A stretch of DNA of 39,677 nucleotides from a virus. Below the pieces are notes generated by a model. That model saw only the letters and a program-made list of their open reading frames with translations. It had not been told where the DNA came from and did not search any database. A program made the translations under genes and the position numbers. Below are positions 8,772 through 35,984 of the stretch, one piece after another (positions within the stretch are counted from its first letter, which is position 1; every line of letters begins with the position of its first letter). Location of the stretch: positions 1-39,677 of the IMG/VR virus record IMGVR_UViG_3300044713_000006, one strand, 5' to 3'.

Positions 8772-11549
8772 ATGGGCTTTCAATATCCAGTTAACCCGGT
8801 ACCGGGCCAGCGGGTTACGACGCCCGGTGGGATTACGTTTGTATGGGCGGAACCGCCCGGTGGATGGGTGTCCGTATTTTCTGATGCGAGTTGGCCTCCA
8901 GAGTATATGGCTGGTTCGTATGTTTCGTTCCCAGAAAACCCGGCAGTTGGAGATACGTTTACCACCCCGGCTGGATTAGAGTTTGTTTATACTGCGGAGA
9001 ACGCTTGGCGCGTTATTGGCACAGCCGCGCTACCAAGTCCTTATTTTCTTGCCGGTGTTGGCCCTCCACCAAATATTGTGGGATATGAGGGCAATTATTA
9101 TTTGGATGTTTCAACGGGTGAGCTTTATGGACCCTATGATGGGGCGCAATGGCCTCCACCCGTTTCGTTTATTCCAGCTACAGGTCCGACTGGCCCTCAA
9201 GGTATACCGGGTCCAACGGGTCCAGTAGGTCCAATAGGCGCTACAGGAGTACCGGGCGCTCAAGGGCAGCAAGGTACACAAGGTCCGCTTGGTCCGCAAG
9301 GTCTGGAAGGGATACAAGGACCGCCGGGTCCAATGGGGCAAGCTGGTCAGTTTGTCCGCATTGTTGGATATTTCTCTAATAAAACACCAGCACAATTGCC
9401 GCCCAATGGTAATTTTCCGATTAACTGGGATAGCCTTGGTAATCCGTCTCAAGCTTACGTAATCCCCTATAACGGCGGCTTGACCTATACAGTTGATCAA
9501 CATGTTTGGATCTTTGTTAGTCCTCAATTTAATCCCGCTGGATGGGTTGATCTTGGGTCAATGAACAGTATGCCGGGTATACAAGGTCCGCAAGGTCCAG
9601 CCGGTATTCAGGGTATTCAAGGCGATCCCGGCCCACAGGGCGCACAAGGTATTGCGGGTCCGCAAGGCTTGCAAGGTGTACCCGGTGCGGATGGTCAAGA
9701 TGGCGCGCAAGGCCCAGAGGGTCCAGAAGGCCCACCGGGTCAAACAGCTATCCTTGTTGGATCATTTTCCAATCAACCAATCTCTGCGCTGCCACCTGAT
9801 GGGTTTTTTCCCGCCGATTGGGATAGTCCCGATAATCCGCCTAACCCCTATCAAATGTCGCTTGGGCAAGGATTGGTTGATACACGAACGGAGGATATTT
9901 GGACTTTCGTTGGGACAACGATTAATGCTTCAGGATGGGTTGGCATAGGGGATGTACAAGGACCACCCGGCCCTCAAGGTATACAAGGTGTACCCGGTGT
10001 AGCTGGACCAGAAGGCCCGCCCGGTGCGCAAGGCATGCAAGGTATTCAAGGCCCAGTAGGACCAACTGGCCCTCAAGGCGTACAAGGTCCAGCCGGTATA
10101 GATGGTCCACCGGGTAACGATGGTGCGGCTACAATTATTGTTGGATCGTTTACGAATAACGATCCTTCTACGTTACCGCCCAATGGTTTTATTCCAGCGA
10201 ATTGGGACGCTCCCAATAGTCCTCCAAACGTTATTCAGATGGTTATGGGGCAGTCGATGCTCTATACCCCTGATAATCACATCTATGTTTGGATCAGTAC
10301 ACTTAATGATCCTACTGGATGGATAAACATTGGATTTGCTCAAGGGCCGACAGGACCGCAAGGTCCACAAGGAACACCGGGTCCGCAAGGCCCACAGGGA
10401 CCACAAGGCCCAGCCGGTCAGGGTTTTGTTGATGCGCCGTTAGATGGTAACATTTACGGACGGCAAAATGGTGGGTGGGAGGAAGTATCCGCCGCAGTAT
10501 CAGTTGGCAGTACACCCCCCGCTGGCCCCTCAGTGGGTCAATTGTGGTGGGATGATGTCGGAGGGCAACTTTATGTTTGGTATGATGACGGTAATACACA
10601 ACAATGGGTGATTACGGTCAATCAGACGTTTACTCTCCCAACAAATTTGGTTAGAGAAGCGCCGACTGACGGTGCAGCTTATGGTCGAGCAAGTGCAACA
10701 TGGACACCCGTTTTAAAGCTTGCTGGCGGGGTGATGACCGGTGGGCTTACTCTAAACGGTAATCCAATTGCGGCATTACAAGCTGCGCCTAAGCAATACG
10801 TCGATACAGGTATAAACAATGCCTTAGCCGCAGCCGTAGATGCGGCTGCACCAATTGGAGGGATAATGATGTGGTCGGGGCAAACCCCCCCGACGAATTG
10901 GTTATTGTGTGATGGTACGGTCTATTTAAACTCAGCGATCCCATTACTTGCGCCTATTCTTAATAATCAATATAATGCTGGTACATCCGCCGTTGGCGGT
11001 ACATCATCTGCTGTACCTTATATGATACAAAAATTCCCGCGTGGGGCAACTTCTACTTCTGCTGGCGCAACTGGTGGTGAAGCGGCTCATACCCTCGTTA
11101 CACCGGAAATGCCTTCACACGTGCATCCCGTTGGCGATCCCGGTCACGCACATGGGTTTAGTGATCCCGGTCACGCTCATAGCCTTTATGATCCTACCCA
11201 CGTTCATGGTGTCGGTGATCCCGGCCATGCCCATAGTATAGCCGATCCCGGTCATGCGCATACGTATACAGGGTGGACCTCTCCAGCAGTCAATATAGCG
11301 GCTGGTTCTGGAGGGAGTATGGTTGGGCAAGCAACTGGTGGATCAGGTACCGGTATTGGCATTTACGCTGCGGGTACAGGTGTCTACCTTGGCTATGCTG
11401 CAACTAGTATGGGTGTCTATGCTGCGGGAACGGGTGCATGGATTGATGGGGCATATACTGGGGTTTATCTTGGAGCAACAGGTGGGGATCAACCACACAA
11501 TAACCTGCCTCCATACATCGATATCCCATTCATAATTAAATACCAATGA
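8772..11549 (+). CDS. Tail fibre with collagen-like repeats and collar domain
   Basis: A 925-residue trimeric fibre. In order: short N-terminal repeats of the type PVNPVPGQRVTTPGG; four collagen-like Gly-X-Y tracts (about residues 136-193, 268-325, 393-452, 517-548); three ~70-residue modules between them, each starting VGxFxN and carrying LPPxGxxPxxWD; two YGR modules; a WWDDVGGQLYVWYDDG module; a GGVMTGGLTLNGNPIAAL repeat; a tail-collar domain from about residue 695 (GGIMMWSGQTPPTNWLLCDG); then a cluster of His-x-His units (about 783-832), which in T4 gp12-like fibres bind metal ions along the trimer axis. The end (QPHNNLPPYIDIPFIIKYQ) is a typical collar terminus. There is no visible ribosome site; the palindrome abuts the start. 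Confidence 0.88.
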   Translation: MGFQYPVNPVPGQRVTTPGGITFVWAEPPGGWVSVFSDASWPPEYMAGSYVSFPENPAVGDTFTTPAGLEFVYTAENAWRVIGTAALPSPYFLAGVGPPPNIVGYEGNYYLDVSTGELYGPYDGAQWPPPVSFIPATGPTGPQGIPGPTGPVGPIGATGVPGAQGQQGTQGPLGPQGLEGIQGPPGPMGQAGQFVRIVGYFSNKTPAQLPPNGNFPINWDSLGNPSQAYVIPYNGGLTYTVDQHVWIFVSPQFNPAGWVDLGSMNSMPGIQGPQGPAGIQGIQGDPGPQGAQGIAGPQGLQGVPGADGQDGAQGPEGPEGPPGQTAILVGSFSNQPISALPPDGFFPADWDSPDNPPNPYQMSLGQGLVDTRTEDIWTFVGTTINASGWVGIGDVQGPPGPQGIQGVPGVAGPEGPPGAQGMQGIQGPVGPTGPQGVQGPAGIDGPPGNDGAATIIVGSFTNNDPSTLPPNGFIPANWDAPNSPPNVIQMVMGQSMLYTPDNHIYVWISTLNDPTGWINIGFAQGPTGPQGPQGTPGPQGPQGPQGPAGQGFVDAPLDGNIYGRQNGGWEEVSAAVSVGSTPPAGPSVGQLWWDDVGGQLYVWYDDGNTQQWVITVNQTFTLPTNLVREAPTDGAAYGRASATWTPVLKLAGGVMTGGLTLNGNPIAALQAAPKQYVDTGINNALAAAVDAAAPIGGIMMWSGQTPPTNWLLCDGTVYLNSAIPLLAPILNNQYNAGTSAVGGTSSAVPYMIQKFPRGATSTSAGATGGEAAHTLVTPEMPSHVHPVGDPGHAHGFSDPGHAHSLYDPTHVHGVGDPGHAHSIADPGHAHTYTGWTSPAVNIAAGSGGSMVGQATGGSGTGIGIYAAGTGVYLGYAATSMGVYAAGTGAWIDGAYTGVYLGATGGDQPHNNLPPYIDIPFIIKYQ

Positions 11550-11823: not shown

Positions 11824-13250
11824 TTGATTTCCCTGCTAACCCAACCAATGGGCAACAGTTTACTGTAGGCAATACCATTTGGGTGTGGGATGGAACCAAG
11901 TGGACTACGGTAAGCGGTGTTGCGCCGGTAGTGACTGAATATCTACCATTAGTTGGTGGTACGTTAACGGGGCCATTAATTCTCGCTGCTGATCCAACGA
12001 TACCGTTAGGAGCATCAACGAAAGAATATGTTGATGTTAATACGGGTGCGGTTTTACTAAGCGCTACACCACCTTTGGATGCGAAGGTGGGTGCGCTATG
12101 GTGGGATACCGTTGGTGGCAATCTTTATGTTTGGTTTGATGATGGCACCAGCCAACAATGGGTAGCTGCATCGAATGGATTTATGTCCTTACCGGGATGG
12201 TTGCCATTAGGGGGTGGAACATTAACCGGTACGTTAAACGCTGTAGATGCTAATTTTTCTGGTCCAGTAACGATTAACGGTGCTGCTTTTGATGGTGTAC
12301 CGCTTACCATTTCAATTACAGGCGCTCCAGCCAATACAAATTTCCCGACCATTGATGCGCCACTTAATAGTTGGCGTTCGATTATGGGTACAACTTCCGG
12401 TGTGGATCGTTGGCATTTGTCGCTTGGTAATGGCACTGAAGAGACTGGGGCTAATGCCGGATGTGATTTTGCTCTTTATAGTTACGACGATAATGGCGAT
12501 TACCTTGACGCACCGTTGCAAATTAATCGTCAAACTAGTGAAGCGACGTTTTCCGGCTACGTCACATGCGCATCCGGCCTTTTCTACACCCAGCAACCCA
12601 CCTCCGAAGATAATTGCCATTATTGGTTCCTCGACTACACAGGCGCGTCAAAGGGCATCCTCTATTGGGAGCACTCCGCCGACAGCATGATCCTGTCGCA
12701 TTCGGACAGCGGCCAATCAATCTCCATCGACAGCGGTGGCAACTGCTGGCTGCCGCTCGATGTCCATGCCGGCTATGGCTACGCATGTCGCCAAGGCATG
12801 ACCGGCGGCTACGGTGCCAATCGGTTCAACTTTTTTTACAATAGCGATGGCACGGTTCAGGGATGGATCGATGCTACGTATATGGGGTATATTTCTTTTG
12901 TCTCTGATTATCGAATTAAGAAAAGCATCACTCCGTTACCATCAACGTGGGAGCGGGTGAAGGCACTCAAGCCAATCCGTTATAGCCATAAAGATTATAC
13001 GCCACAAAATCCAGCCCCTACTAAAGATGGTAGCTCTCCACCTCCATTGGTTAAAGCAGACAATATTGAACGCTGGGGGTTTGTCGCTCATGAACTTCAG
13101 GAGACGTTAGTTGAGAGTGCGGCGAGCGGAGTTAAGGATCAAGCTGATACAATTCAATCGCCTAATCCGTGGACGGTGATTGCAAGCTTAACCAAAGCGC
13201 TTCAAGAAGCAATGGAACGTATTGAAGCATTGGAGGCGGCACGTGCTTGA
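11820..13250 (+). CDS. Tail fibre with S74 intramolecular chaperone
   Basis: A 476-residue fibre. The N-terminus (MIDFPANPTNGQQFTVGNT, WVWDGTKWTT) resembles fibre-attachment modules. Then come two GGTLTGPL/GGTLTGTL shaft repeats, a WWDTVGGNLYVWFDDG module shared with the collagen-like fibre, a beta-rich middle and, from about residue 361, the S74 chaperone (SDYRIKKSITPLPSTWERVK ... ERWGFVAHELQETL), ending in a coiled coil. In family members the chaperone drives trimerisation and then cleaves itself off. The GTG start overlaps the upstream TGA. Codons across ~12545-12835 are strongly C-ending, unlike both flanks, which suggests recombination. Confidence 0.85.
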   Translation: MIDFPANPTNGQQFTVGNTIWVWDGTKWTTVSGVAPVVTEYLPLVGGTLTGPLILAADPTIPLGASTKEYVDVNTGAVLLSATPPLDAKVGALWWDTVGGNLYVWFDDGTSQQWVAASNGFMSLPGWLPLGGGTLTGTLNAVDANFSGPVTINGAAFDGVPLTISITGAPANTNFPTIDAPLNSWRSIMGTTSGVDRWHLSLGNGTEETGANAGCDFALYSYDDNGDYLDAPLQINRQTSEATFSGYVTCASGLFYTQQPTSEDNCHYWFLDYTGASKGILYWEHSADSMILSHSDSGQSISIDSGGNCWLPLDVHAGYGYACRQGMTGGYGANRFNFFYNSDGTVQGWIDATYMGYISFVSDYRIKKSITPLPSTWERVKALKPIRYSHKDYTPQNPAPTKDGSSPPPLVKADNIERWGFVAHELQETLVESAASGVKDQADTIQSPNPWTVIASLTKALQEAMERIEALEAARA

Positions 13251-16611: not shown

Positions 16612-17161
16612 TAGAACGATATATCCGTCGATCCCCGATCCCGGTAATACACTGGCGACAATCGTTCCTTGCTTGTTGGCAATCAAACAAACATTGCAGA
16701 TGATTATCATTAATGCACAAAGCCCGAACCCTAATTATACACCTTCTTCTGCTGCTCAGATATTTGTAACCCGTGATGATCTTCAGGGGGGTGGTGTAGT
16801 TGGCGAGCAAGGTCCAGCCGGTCCACAGGGTCCACCCGGTGAGGGTATAGTGGAAGCACCGGTTGATGTGAATACTTATGGGCGGCATGATCTTGCATGG
16901 ACTAAGGTTTTCCCGTTGGATTGTTCACAGAACTTGCAGCCTGCACCGGGTAATCAATTCACTATTCAAGTTATGGGGGGTACTTATGCTGGTGTAGTGG
17001 CTAAGGATGCTACTTATCAAGGGTGGGCACTTGCTTTAGGCACTATCGATACACCGGCACGTCAACAATTTGCTATTTTAAATCCATCTGGTCAACCCGT
17101 ATTATGGATCGATTCAAGCGGTGTTATTCACGTTAATGCGCCAATTGTGGTAGGGCCATGA
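16604..17161 (+). CDS. Short fibre-like protein with collagen-like tract (TTG start)
   Basis: A 185-residue protein. The start is a TTG that overlaps the upstream gene by eight bases; a ribosome site (AAGGAG) lies at the right distance and no ATG is available. Residues ~60-85 hold a short collagen-like stretch (GEQGPAGPQGPPGEG), followed by an EAPVDVNTYGR module shared with the large collagen-like fibre. The C-terminal half is beta-rich (FAILNPSGQPVLWIDSSGVI). It is probably an accessory fibre. Its stop overlaps the next start (ATGA). Confidence 0.65.
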   Translation: MPSRTIYPSIPDPGNTLATIVPCLLAIKQTLQMIIINAQSPNPNYTPSSAAQIFVTRDDLQGGGVVGEQGPAGPQGPPGEGIVEAPVDVNTYGRHDLAWTKVFPLDCSQNLQPAPGNQFTIQVMGGTYAGVVAKDATYQGWALALGTIDTPARQQFAILNPSGQPVLWIDSSGVIHVNAPIVVGP

Positions 17162-17649
17162 TCAGGATCAACGATGCTCACGCTATTCGTTTAGTTGCTG
17201 ATTGTGCTGGGGTTAATCTTGGTGCGAAAATTTATTGTATTGCTGATTACGATAGCAATGATCGGCTAACCGGAGGAGTGTTAATTCTTCATGACAATGG
17301 ATGGAGTTGTGAAATACATTCAGCTTCTTTTAGACCAAATTGGGCCACACGCGAACTCGTGTGGGCAGTGTTCAACTACGTATTCAGAGTTAGAGGCATT
17401 AAGAAGTTATTTGGTCGGGTACCAGAAAGCAACGCGAGAGCGAGGCGGTTTAACCGCAACCTTGGTTTCACCGAAGAAGCGATCATCGAAGATGTTTTCT
17501 TCGGAGGAGAAGGATTAGTTGTTATGAGTATGTATGCGGATGATTGTCGATTTCTTAGGATGAAACTGCCAGCAGTTAAGTTTGCTCCATTGGATAAATC
17601 TCATATTGTCGAGGTCCACGAATATTCTCAGGAACATATAGGAGGATAA
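17158..17649 (+). CDS. GNAT-family N-acetyltransferase
   Basis: A 163-residue phage-type GNAT protein that transfers acetyl from acetyl-CoA to an unknown substrate. Support: a beta-alpha pattern ending in GRVPESNARARRFNRNLGFT (about residues 86-105), the acetyl-CoA-loop/helix region typical of RimJ/RimL-like phage acetyltransferases, then a terminal strand (LVVMSMYADDCRFL). It is coupled to the fibre gene by ATGA and followed by the internal virion protein two bases later. Such genes are common beside tail modules. Whether the target is host or virion protein is unknown. A palindrome lies near the 3' end, read as KLPAVK. Confidence 0.8.
   Translation: MIRINDAHAIRLVADCAGVNLGAKIYCIADYDSNDRLTGGVLILHDNGWSCEIHSASFRPNWATRELVWAVFNYVFRVRGIKKLFGRVPESNARARRFNRNLGFTEEAIIEDVFFGGEGLVVMSMYADDCRFLRMKLPAVKFAPLDKSHIVEVHEYSQEHIGG
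17562..17579. repeat. 18-bp palindrome, copy 8 (intragenic)
   Basis: GAAACTG-CCAG-CAGTTAA has two mismatches. It lies near the 3' end of the acetyltransferase gene, read as Lys-Leu-Pro-Ala-Val-Lys. Confidence 0.7.
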
Positions 17650-32741: not shown

Positions 32742-33455
32742 ATGGCGTATCGCATAGCGAAATCGCTCGACAAGATGCGGGCACAATTTAACCAGCATTC
32801 ACCGGGCCGTAATAAGGCATCGGATGGTTGGATTGGCGATGCTGCACATGCATCAACTACGAGTGACCATAACCCATGGGTGAAAGATGGCTCTATGGGA
32901 GTTGTTACGGCTCTTGATATTACACACGATCCTAAGAATAGGGTGGATACTTGGGCCATTGCGGAGCATCTACGACAGAAACGTGACCCCCGAGTTAAAT
33001 ACGTTATCTCTAATAAACGTATATTCAGTTCGACAACTTCTCCATGGACGTGGCGCACTTATACGGGGAGCAATCCCCATTCATCGCACATTCACGTAAG
33101 CGTTCACCAACATAAGCACCACTACGATGACGAGAAGCCGTGGGACTTAATCCCCGGTGGGACGGCACAACCAAGCCCAGAAGCACCATCAACGTCGCGT
33201 CCTATACTACGAAGCGGATCGCGGGGTGAAGACGTTAAGACCGTACAGCGTATACTTGATCTGGCCCTTGTGGATGGTATCTTTGGCCCGATCACTGAGA
33301 ACGCTGTAAAGGGTTTACAACGTACTGAGAAACTTGTCGTTGATGGTATTGTCGGCCCCGCAACATGGGCTGCGCTCGACAAGATTGAACAAATTCCGGT
33401 GCCGCTCAATTACGCGGAACCACGCGAACTATCGGAACCGGAGAAGGGGGGTTAA
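32742..33455 (+). CDS. Endolysin: M15-like peptidase with PG-binding domain
   Basis: A 237-residue lysis enzyme. Residues ~1-125 resemble M15-type (D-Ala-D-Ala / L-Ala-D-Glu) metallopeptidases: STTSDHNPW with His43, ALDITHDP with Asp59, and PHSSHIHVSV with His116/His118, the expected zinc ligands. Residues ~158-215 are a peptidoglycan-binding type 1 domain (SRGEDVKTVQRILDL; DGIVGPATWAALDKI). It has no signal peptide, so it probably needs a holin. It is preceded by a strong promoter and a palindrome in place of a ribosome site. It cuts the cell-wall peptide at the end of infection. Confidence 0.87.
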   Translation: MAYRIAKSLDKMRAQFNQHSPGRNKASDGWIGDAAHASTTSDHNPWVKDGSMGVVTALDITHDPKNRVDTWAIAEHLRQKRDPRVKYVISNKRIFSSTTSPWTWRTYTGSNPHSSHIHVSVHQHKHHYDDEKPWDLIPGGTAQPSPEAPSTSRPILRSGSRGEDVKTVQRILDLALVDGIFGPITENAVKGLQRTEKLVVDGIVGPATWAALDKIEQIPVPLNYAEPRELSEPEKGG

Positions 33456-34053: not shown

Positions 34054-34743
34054 ATGGCAAGAGGTTATTGGGCTTATATTATCCCCTCGGGCGGTCGGCC
34101 CGGTGGGGGCGGAGGTCCGGTTGATCCCGATTACGGTATCGAGGAGGGGCCGGACCCCGGTTGGGGTGTCGATGAAGGCGGGCATCCTGATCAAGGACTT
34201 CCCGGTGGCGGTTGGGGTCGTCCCCCACGTCCCGGTAATCGGCCCCCCGGTAGTGGGCGTCCCCCACGTCCCGGCCATGGTCTACCCCCGGCTTGGGGTG
34301 GTGGCGGTGGTGGGGAACGTCCCGGCCATCTTCCCTCGCGTCCCAGCCGTCCCGGTGGCGGTGGTAGTCCTGATCAAGGGTTGCCTCCGGTCGGCGGTGA
34401 TGGCGGTGAAGACGCTAGCCAGCTTCCGGTATGGCCGGTTGATCCAGAGCATCCTATCGCTCCTCCGATCCCCGGTGAGCCAAACCCGCCAATCGATCCG
34501 CCTCCCGGCACGGTATGGCCTCCGCTACCCGAAGGGCTTCCAGAGGGTAAGGCAATCGCCTTGATGGGGATTGCAACGAGCAGTGGCAGAGTGGCGTTCC
34601 ACTATGTCATTATCGAGGTGCCGCCACCGAAGCCGGATCAAGGCTTGCCGGGTGGTGGCGGTGGTGGTGAACATCCAGAAGTTCAACCGCCAATTGCACC
34701 GGGTGGACCGCCTACGGCACAGCCGAAGGCTTTCCGGCGGTAA
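34054..34743 (+). CDS. Gly/Pro-rich protein with PDQGLP repeats
   Basis: A 229-residue protein. The start was chosen at the ATG after GAGGAG; the frame is open a few codons upstream. A short hydrophobic N-terminus (MARGYWAYIIPSGG) is followed by Gly/Pro repeats, including PDQGLP three times and RPPRPG units. Residues ~165-190 (GKAIALMGIATSSGRVAFHY) are the only ordinary folded-looking segment. It may be a surface or virion protein. I recognise no domain. A hairpin lies just downstream. Confidence 0.65.
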   Translation: MARGYWAYIIPSGGRPGGGGGPVDPDYGIEEGPDPGWGVDEGGHPDQGLPGGGWGRPPRPGNRPPGSGRPPRPGHGLPPAWGGGGGGERPGHLPSRPSRPGGGGSPDQGLPPVGGDGGEDASQLPVWPVDPEHPIAPPIPGEPNPPIDPPPGTVWPPLPEGLPEGKAIALMGIATSSGRVAFHYVIIEVPPPKPDQGLPGGGGGGEHPEVQPPIAPGGPPTAQPKAFRR

Positions 34744-34759
34744 GTTAACAAGAATTGGT

Positions 34760-34782
34760 GGCGAGAGGGTAGTCCTCTCGCC
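34760..34782 (+). terminator. Hairpin between Gly/Pro-rich and PEP-CTERM genes
   Basis: GGCGAGAGG (34760-34768) and CCTCTCGCC (34774-34782) form a perfect 9-bp stem with a GTAGT loop. There is no T tract, so it could be a terminator without a tail or a processing/stability element. Confidence 0.7.
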
Positions 34783-34801
34783 CTCAACTGGAGGACCAAG
34801 A

Positions 34802-35449
34802 ATGAGAAAAGTGTTATTGGCTAGCACGTTGCTAGCAGCAATGGGGGTCAGTCCTGCAATGGCAACATTGCAAATCGAGGTGTTCGATAACGGGTCGTTG
34901 ATCGACAACATTACCGGGATCACGACGGGCGCAGCGAGCCTAACAGCCAACGACGCGAATTTCGCCAACATCACGATCAATGCGCAAGGCTCGCCCATCT
35001 TGCCCAACGCGGACCTATCGAGTGTCACGCTCGACGCCACTGCGGCGTTGGGCTTTAGCGGCGCACACACGTTGACCATTGACGTGATGCAAAGCGCTAT
35101 CTTTGGCACAGGAAATACCCTCTCAACCTTCACGGTCAACGGTTTGACCAATGATCCCGGCCCGACGACAGAGAGTACGTTCGCCAATGGAGGGTTGCTC
35201 GCTACGCATACCTTCCCTGCCGTATTGCTCGATGGTTCCTTTGGTCCGGTGTCGGCGGCGACCGGCGCATTCACGTCAGACGAGACACAGTTCGCTGTGG
35301 ACTTCACGGCACCGCGTCAGTCATTCGGTGGTTCGATCCAGTTGACGACAGGTGTTCCTGAGCTTTCGACTTGGGCGATGCTGCTGATCGGTTTCGCCTT
35401 TGTGGCGTGGGGCGCTATGACGCGCAAACGAGTGCGGGAGTTTTACTGA
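34802..35449 (+). CDS. Exported protein with PEP-CTERM sorting signal
   Basis: A 215-residue protein with a Sec signal peptide (MRKVLLASTLLAAMGVSPAMA) and a C-terminal exosortase signal: VPELSTWAMLLIGFAFVAWG then MTRKR, the PEPxxWAM form common in alphaproteobacteria. Between them is a Thr/Ala/Asn-rich beta-type domain with no named family. In hosts, exosortase cleaves such proteins at the membrane for export or surface display. No exosortase is visible here, so processing would depend on the host. The gene has its own ribosome site (GGAGG), stands between two hairpins and has more C/G-ending codons than its neighbours, which suggests an acquired cassette. A longer open frame extends upstream but overlaps the previous gene. 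Confidence 0.82.
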   Translation: MRKVLLASTLLAAMGVSPAMATLQIEVFDNGSLIDNITGITTGAASLTANDANFANITINAQGSPILPNADLSSVTLDATAALGFSGAHTLTIDVMQSAIFGTGNTLSTFTVNGLTNDPGPTTESTFANGGLLATHTFPAVLLDGSFGPVSAATGAFTSDETQFAVDFTAPRQSFGGSIQLTTGVPELSTWAMLLIGFAFVAWGAMTRKRVREFY

Positions 35450-35450
35450 G

Positions 35451-35468
35451 TTAACTGCTGGCAGTTAG
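35451..35468. repeat. 18-bp palindrome, copy 21
   Basis: TTAACTG-CTGG-CAGTTAG has one mismatch. It starts right after the PEP-CTERM gene's stop and runs directly into the next hairpin. Confidence 0.9.
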
Positions 35469-35469
35469 G

Positions 35470-35496
35470 ATCACCGCCGTTTCGGGCGGCGGTGAT
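35470..35496 (+). terminator. Hairpin downstream of PEP-CTERM gene
   Basis: ATCACCGCCG pairs with CGGCGGTGAT around a short T/G-rich loop, a strong 10-bp stem. There is no T tract. With the hairpin at 34760 it brackets the PEP-CTERM gene. Confidence 0.75.
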
Positions 35497-35504
35497 TACT
35501 CAAA

Positions 35505-35729
35505 ATGAATGGAGCAAAGACTGGGTTCATAGCGTTGTGTGGTGCGTTGACCATCCTTACTATTTTTGCATTGATGGACTTCTATGCTATCCATCAATGT
35601 TTTTATATAACGCGAACAGGAAATCCACTTCCCGATTTATGTTCGCCTGAGCATATATTCCGGTCCTCATTAGAAATTGCTGGTATGGCTATTGGCCTTT
35701 ATGGTGTGTCAAAGGTTATGAGGTCATAG
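35505..35729 (+). CDS. Small two-helix membrane protein with paired Cys (A)
   Basis: A 74-residue protein with membrane segments at about 7-27 and 54-70. Between them is a loop with two Cys 14 residues apart (CFYITRTGNPLPDLC). The next gene encodes a protein of the same plan, so they look like paralogues. A weak start: no good ribosome site is visible, and the hairpin ends 8 bases upstream. It could be a holin-, antiholin- or superinfection-exclusion-type protein; this is inference. Confidence 0.6.
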   Translation: MNGAKTGFIALCGALTILTIFALMDFYAIHQCFYITRTGNPLPDLCSPEHIFRSSLEIAGMAIGLYGVSKVMRS

Positions 35730-35738
35730 CACTACGCC

Positions 35739-35984
35739 ATGAGTGACGAAGACAAGAAGGCTTATAAGCAATTGCTTCTCATTGGCGTATTGGCAATTTT
35801 TGGTATTTTATATATAGTTGCATTCGGTACCTTATTCGCCCTTTATGGGTGCTTCGATCTCTATATGAAGAGGGTCTTACCGATACCAGAGGGCTGCACT
35901 AACGGCTCATTTAGTAAATTTGTGCTTGAATTTGTAGCGATTACAGTCGGGGTGTTGGGGGCAATCCGGTTGCTAGGACAATGA
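35739..35984 (+). CDS. Small two-helix membrane protein with paired Cys (B)
   Basis: An 81-residue protein with a charged N-terminus (MSDEDKKAYKQ), membrane segments at about 12-33 and 60-78, and a loop with two Cys 15 apart (CFDLYMKRVLPIPEGC). Its layout and the shared F-x-x-x-x-CF ... P-x-P-x-x-C pattern mirror the preceding protein. It is the last gene of the rightward set and is followed by the convergent stem-loop. Function unknown. Confidence 0.65.
   Translation: MSDEDKKAYKQLLLIGVLAIFGILYIVAFGTLFALYGCFDLYMKRVLPIPEGCTNGSFSKFVLEFVAITVGVLGAIRLLGQ

Follow-up and report, generated by a model that had tools for sequence, protein, structure and literature searches.

A mobile gene for a predicted exported protein with an exosortase-type sorting signal in uncultivated soil phages

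What could a phage gain from a protein that carries the ends of a bacterial exosortase substrate? This question is raised by a gene in the late region of the window, by which we mean the whole 39,677-nt stretch of viral DNA analysed here (IMG/VR record IMGVR_UViG_3300044713_000006). The original prediction, made from the sequence alone, described an acquired gene between two strong hairpins whose product might alter the surface of the infected or lysogenic host. The features of this region, in window coordinates, are as follows.

32742 to 33455, plus strand: endolysin with a peptidoglycan-binding domain, which precedes the PEP-CTERM gene within the same late region
34054 to 34743, plus strand: Pro/Gly-rich gene with the conserved core WPPLP..GKA..V.I....Y.VI.IP, which directly precedes PEP-CTERM genes in several contexts unrelated to one another
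34760 to 34782, plus strand: upstream hairpin with a 9-bp stem and a 5-nt loop, missing in most relatives
34790 to 34794, plus strand: Shine-Dalgarno sequence GGAGG, 7 nt ahead of the ATG, read directly
34802 to 35449, plus strand: PEP-CTERM gene of the phage family that we designate Type I, with an ATG start and 215 amino acids plus stop; relatives in about 65 IMG/VR contigs
34802 to 34864, plus strand: signal-peptide-like N-terminus, residues 1-21, in which AMA precedes the conserved TLQIE (presumed cleavage site)
34865 to 35353, plus strand: ectodomain, residues 22-184, all-beta and without Cys, with a median amino acid identity of 88% across unrelated phages
35354 to 35446, plus strand: C-terminal sorting signal, residues 185-215, consisting of VPELSTW, a TM helix and a basic tail
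35470 to 35496, plus strand: downstream hairpin without a T-run, missing in most relatives
35505 to 35729, plus strand: small TM protein, resembling a holin in size and hydrophobicity (cluster c26)
35739 to 35984, plus strand: another small TM protein, also in cluster c26

The gene is a real open reading frame with a ribosome site of its own, as had been predicted. Its signal-peptide-like stretch reads MRKVLLASTLLAAMGVSPAMA, and a heuristic used in place of SignalP found a basic n-region in 54 of 54 Type I relatives, all of which also have a net basic C-terminal tail. The AlphaFold2 model of the Type I protein contains an N-terminal helix (residues 2-13) and a C-terminal helix (residues 190-214), and AlphaFold2 run on 30 relatives gave a helix, an all-beta domain and, at the C-terminus, a long helix, with a mean pLDDT of 73. 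No strongly hydrophobic 19-mer that could form a second TM segment was detected in the ectodomain by a heuristic (maximum 1.31). A protein that begins like a signal peptide and ends in a TM helix with a basic tail agrees with the original prediction of an exported, exosortase-type protein on a phage. This is the arrangement of the bacterial PEP-CTERM/exosortase (EpsH) system in its PEPxxWA-CTERM variant (TIGR02595, NF035944; PMC1569441), in which a signal peptide is combined with PE..TW, a TM helix and a basic tail, and the phage protein also resembles its bacterial counterparts in having an ectodomain without known homologue. It differs from them in being phage-encoded without an exosortase, in having an ectodomain that is swapped between unrelated phages and in the PEL of the window copy.

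That last difference corrects the predicted PEPxxWAM motif, which is not literally present because the window copy reads VPELSTWAM. The PEP-CTERM domain itself was recovered by profile searches across the family, but the window copy was matched only below the curated cut-offs: NF035944 gave 25.3 bits (E 1e-5; cut-off 35), TIGR02595 11.2 bits (cut-off 16) and PF07589 12.6 bits (cut-off 20.7). Among 30 aligned members, 28 matched NF035944 (best E 5.5e-11) and 23 matched TIGR02595. The motif was PEP in 41 of 54 distinct relatives, PEA, PET or PES in 11, PEL in the window copy alone and VPGP in one, and a sibling that is 98% identical to the window protein (L002) has PEP. PE..TW was retained in 53 of the 54. 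Judged by these motifs and profiles, the PEP-CTERM class is a fit for the gene family rather than for the window copy alone, which is a variant that may or may not be processed. Because PE..TW stays constant while the other CTERM residues diverge to about 48% identity, the tail is likely to be more than a membrane anchor, and this constancy speaks for a sorting enzyme that recognises the motif, over mere anchoring. One Type I protein (L058, 1339-1995) has VVPGPVVGAGLPG where PE..TW is expected, perhaps another sorting signal.

Scanning IMG/VR yielded 65 Type I loci at 75-98% identity and, in a second round, another three at 54-58%. No real hit was obtained among the cultured phages of INPHARED, and no copy was found in plasmids. 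The notion that phages rarely carry exosortase substrates thus holds for the INPHARED collection, but such genes are common in these uncultivated soil phages. We sorted the loci by hand into 11 genome contexts, keeping divergent members apart. The gene lies between portal/scaffold-like and capsid genes in context A, after a helicase in context B, after the endolysin in context C, which is that of the window, between terminase and portal in context D, near a DNA polymerase in context E and near tail genes in context F; further contexts exist. Among 499 protein clusters, Type I was the only one common to all 11 contexts (55 of 55 pairs, median identity 84%), followed by a helicase family with 25% identity and by some endolysins with about 80%. 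The latter comprise two endolysin-like clusters that are each about 80% identical across unrelated contexts, namely cluster 33 (L006, L026, L031, L032, L036, L042, L059) and cluster 42 (L024, L037-L040, L057), which by eye resemble endolysins of the peptidase M15 and GH19 types. Lysis genes therefore appear to be exchanged as well.

The Type I ectodomain had a median identity of 0.88 both within and between contexts, with a dS of 0.59 within and 0.89 between contexts and a dN/dS of 0.15 and 0.11, respectively, values that indicate purifying selection. Signal peptide and CTERM both diverge, at a dN/dS of about 0.3. Because these dS values lie far below what common descent would give for phages without other alignable genes, the gene has moved between phages. 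The gene tree, poorly resolved in its deep branches, likewise mixes contexts, with 19 changes for a minimum of 11.

In contexts A and D, the gene has portal or terminase and capsid genes on either side, which might suggest a virion or assembly-associated protein with incidentally hydrophobic ends. We regard this as highly improbable given the export signals at both ends, the variable gene position, the presence or absence of the gene among close relatives and its occurrence in phages with unrelated capsids.

To follow presence and absence in a fixed place, we collected 80 relatives of the context-A capsid gene and defined 38 as close (capsid identity at least 88%) and 42 as more distant. Because some of these A-type loci are near-duplicates, the following slot counts do not represent independent events: among the close loci, the slot held a Type I gene in 12, a Type IV gene in 11 and a Type III gene in 10 and was empty in 5, and a PEP-CTERM gene occupied it in none of the 42 more distant relatives. 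The position between the same two genes was verified locus by locus, four of the five empty slots were read directly, and two of the empty slots measure 144 and 195 nt. The ectodomains of Types I, III and IV are mutually unrelated; the Type IV model, obtained with less confidence (mean pLDDT 66), is also all-beta between two helices. Either Type I or Type II occupies the terminase-portal slot of context D. A tandem pair of PEP-CTERM genes occupies the terminase-portal slot in L326 (1099-1806 and 1912-2610), and one phage (L037) has, beside its Type I gene, a second, unrelated PEP-CTERM protein at 11870-12613 that is Gly-rich and contains several Cys.

The clearest swap pair, with some other apparent pairs being less clear, is L004 (Type I) and L238 (Type IV), for which nucleotide identity was 0.86 upstream and 0.87 downstream of the gene, 0.81 in the signal peptide and 0.80 in the CTERM, but dropped to the random level (0.56) in the ectodomain. 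Type I genes of different contexts showed the opposite pattern, with an ectodomain identity of 0.81 and flanks at the random level. Homologous flanks, signal peptide and CTERM around an unrelated ectodomain point to cassette exchange, the export ends remaining in place at the slot. Retention of signal peptide and CTERM while ectodomains differ between types would also be expected of a decoy substrate with which the phage floods the host exosortase and blocks the maturation of host surface proteins, the ectodomain being of minor importance. This is very unlikely because, within Type I, purifying selection is strongest on the ectodomain, which has also diverged less than the CTERM.

These observations sustain the predicted moron-like character of the gene, which is present or absent in a fixed slot, common to otherwise unrelated phages and foreign in codon use. 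Presence and absence were seen in the A slot, filled in 33 of 38 close loci; the lineage of the window offered just one distant relative, which is without the gene, and no relatives were found when the window DUF927 protein was used as a probe for that lineage. The predicted difference in codon use from the neighbours was confirmed, as its GC3 of 0.674 exceeds that of every other gene in a comparison of 21 from the window, and its codon-usage score is among the lowest; in phages with flanks at a GC content of 0.39-0.40, the gene has 0.55-0.57. The hairpin bracket stood only in part. Both hairpins are real and strong in the window (z of -4.4 and -4.8 against shuffles), but they are not fixed to the gene: a significant fold was present downstream in 20% and upstream in 26% of the relatives, compared with 8% of control downstream windows. 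We therefore rejected the hairpins as a mobility signature. Neither flanking hairpin has a T-run, a consensus scan revealed no promoter or terminator bracketing the window gene, and no sigma-54 site, as found upstream of bacterial PEP-CTERM genes, was detected near it.

The Pro/Gly-rich protein encoded upstream of the window gene recurs ahead of Type I genes, at a distance of 175-442 nt, in contexts B (in part), C, D, E and G. It also occurs near Types II and III, and without a PEP-CTERM gene in L306 and L307; the loci are the window, L009, L014, L026, L037, L042, L045, L047-L052, L055, L308 and L321. It is possibly a functional partner of the PEP-CTERM protein.

The endolysin and holin-like genes near the PEP-CTERM gene in the window, as well as in contexts F, G, H and K, raise the alternative of a lysis helper, an inner-membrane protein with a periplasmic beta domain that helps to breach the outer membrane in the manner of a one-piece spanin. 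A u-spanin combines an N-terminal lipobox with a C-terminal TM segment, a layout that the phage protein resembles with its signal peptide, its beta ectodomain and the TM helix at its C-terminus, and a simple lipobox scan of the window gave no convincing spanin lipoprotein that would fill this role. The phage PEP-CTERM protein shares the C-terminal TM segment with u-spanins, but the lipobox Cys is absent from the Type I family, of which 52 of 54 members carry no Cys at all. In contexts A, B and D, moreover, the gene is placed among packaging, capsid or helicase genes, interchangeable unrelated ectodomains and empty slots in close relatives are a poor match for an essential lysis component, and the conserved PE..TW motif would be left unexplained. 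We thus consider a function in lysis unlikely.

The ectodomain alone matched no known family in NCBIfam, Pfam or PHROGs, so that the match of the full-length protein to the FxDxF family is mostly due to the CTERM, and no solved structure was related to it by sequence. We rejected a bacterial source in the searched genomes, within the limited sensitivity of searches run without a positive control genome: an 8-mer scan of 84,980 genomes gave no relative, nor did profile searches of 25 selected genomes, of 397 from one order and of 385 from one class. When the order sample was searched again with a relaxed threshold, only two marginal fragments (E about 0.007) appeared. Fold searches with the Type I model returned generic jelly-roll, adhesin and carbohydrate-binding folds with a best Z of 9.1, and we did not use matches of this kind to assign a function.

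Adhesins and carbohydrate-binding modules among these matches, together with the link of bacterial PEP-CTERM proteins to exopolysaccharide and floc formation (PMC1569441, PMC9850573), would suit an aggregation or biofilm factor that makes infected cells clump or changes their exopolysaccharide, aiding spread to neighbouring cells or protecting the infected one. The fold matches are generic, however, and the floc protein PepA was matched only weakly and mainly through the C-terminal part. An effect of this kind seems quite unlikely to us.

Any use of the sorting signal would depend on the host. The nearest cultured relative of the window phage is Rhizobium phage RHph_TM3_14A (MN988472), with 59% identity in the MCP and 58% in the portal protein; none of the window's PEP-CTERM gene, the Pro/Gly-rich gene beside it, the small TM genes and the endolysin has a match there. 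Elsewhere in the window, an N-acyltransferase gene within the virion module (17158-17646) has a counterpart of 35% identity in that phage, and a 925-aa tail protein with collagen-like Gly-X-Y repeats is encoded at 8772-11546. The context D portal and the context B helicase are closest to an Ochrobactrum phage, so that the cultured relatives, which infect Rhizobium and Ochrobactrum, point to alphaproteobacterial hosts. The only tRNA seen, in L043, was dismissed as a host clue. The bacterial CTERMs nearest to those of the phages were mostly from Hyphomicrobiales, sphingomonads and Phenylobacterium, in a search that was seeded with [GN]VPEPSTW and hence biased, and an exosortase was present in 25 of 29 genomes with matching CTERMs from this seeded search. 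Unselected samples had one in 9 of 80 genomes of one Bradyrhizobium genus (G058), and in 0 of 101 and 1 of 101 genomes at the family level. By these gene searches, exosortase-bearing hosts evidently exist in the right bacterial group, although most of its members are without an exosortase. The patchy occurrence within the Bradyrhizobium genus may bear on which strains the phages can exploit. No phage-encoded exosortase was found in 43 virus records. The lysogenic role that had been considered was not upheld, as no phage integrase was found in 48 records, weak evidence given that many of these are fragments; the carrier soil phages are apparently virulent.

A conserved yet wholesale-swapped ectodomain in apparently virulent phages fits best with surface exclusion or receptor masking. 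Our preferred reading, to which we assign a probability of roughly 0.45, is a mobile phage accessory gene, or moron, for an exported protein that would take the PEP-CTERM/exosortase route, be anchored on the infected cell and act in exclusion or receptor masking. Through the Sec and exosortase systems of the host, the protein would be exported and fixed in the envelope of infected cells, where the displayed beta-sandwich might mask or occupy a surface component. Further phages and released progeny would then be kept from adsorbing to infected or lysed cells, and a change of ectodomain would change the target of exclusion. The block to further adsorption that the original prediction gave as an example would thus still be the most plausible role. 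Everything beyond an exported protein with an exosortase-type signal is what we infer from these comparisons. Occurrence of the same ectodomain in phages with different tails would require a shared receptor or target, which counts against exclusion.

Exclusion proteins such as Llp of the lytic phage T5 block the receptor against secondary infection and against non-productive adsorption to fragments of lysed cells (PMC9586334). The phage PEP-CTERM protein appears similar to Llp in being a small exported envelope protein of a virulent phage, but Llp belongs to the outer-membrane lipoproteins and jams FhuA, and the PEP-CTERM protein, with a C-terminal exosortase-type signal and no lipobox, is not a member of the Llp family. 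With the Ltp-type superinfection-exclusion lipoproteins (PMC3952083), it shares a phage origin and a presumed display on the host surface; these are, in contrast, lipoproteins of temperate phages, and the PEP-CTERM protein has no lipobox and was not accompanied by an integrase in the records searched.

None of the open-access papers searched links PEP-CTERM to viral genomes or to accessory genes of phages. PEP-CTERM signals, morons and exclusion proteins are each known; their combination, in a shared set of swappable ectodomains on host-type sorting ends, appears to be new. Our results suggest that these phages remodel the surface of the infected cell. More tentatively, and short of an even chance, virulent alphaproteobacterial phages may share an exchangeable repertoire of exosortase-anchored proteins, in which cassette ectodomains would give each phage its own exclusion coat by means of a host enzyme.

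Environmental bacteria encode many PEP-CTERM proteins, mostly without a known function, and a conserved, mobile phage ectodomain offers a defined handle on the surface function of an exosortase substrate. If exclusion is its true role, an exosortase-based route would join the known lipoprotein ones, soil phages would possess a swappable slot for surface proteins, and the exosortase would be a host factor in phage competition.
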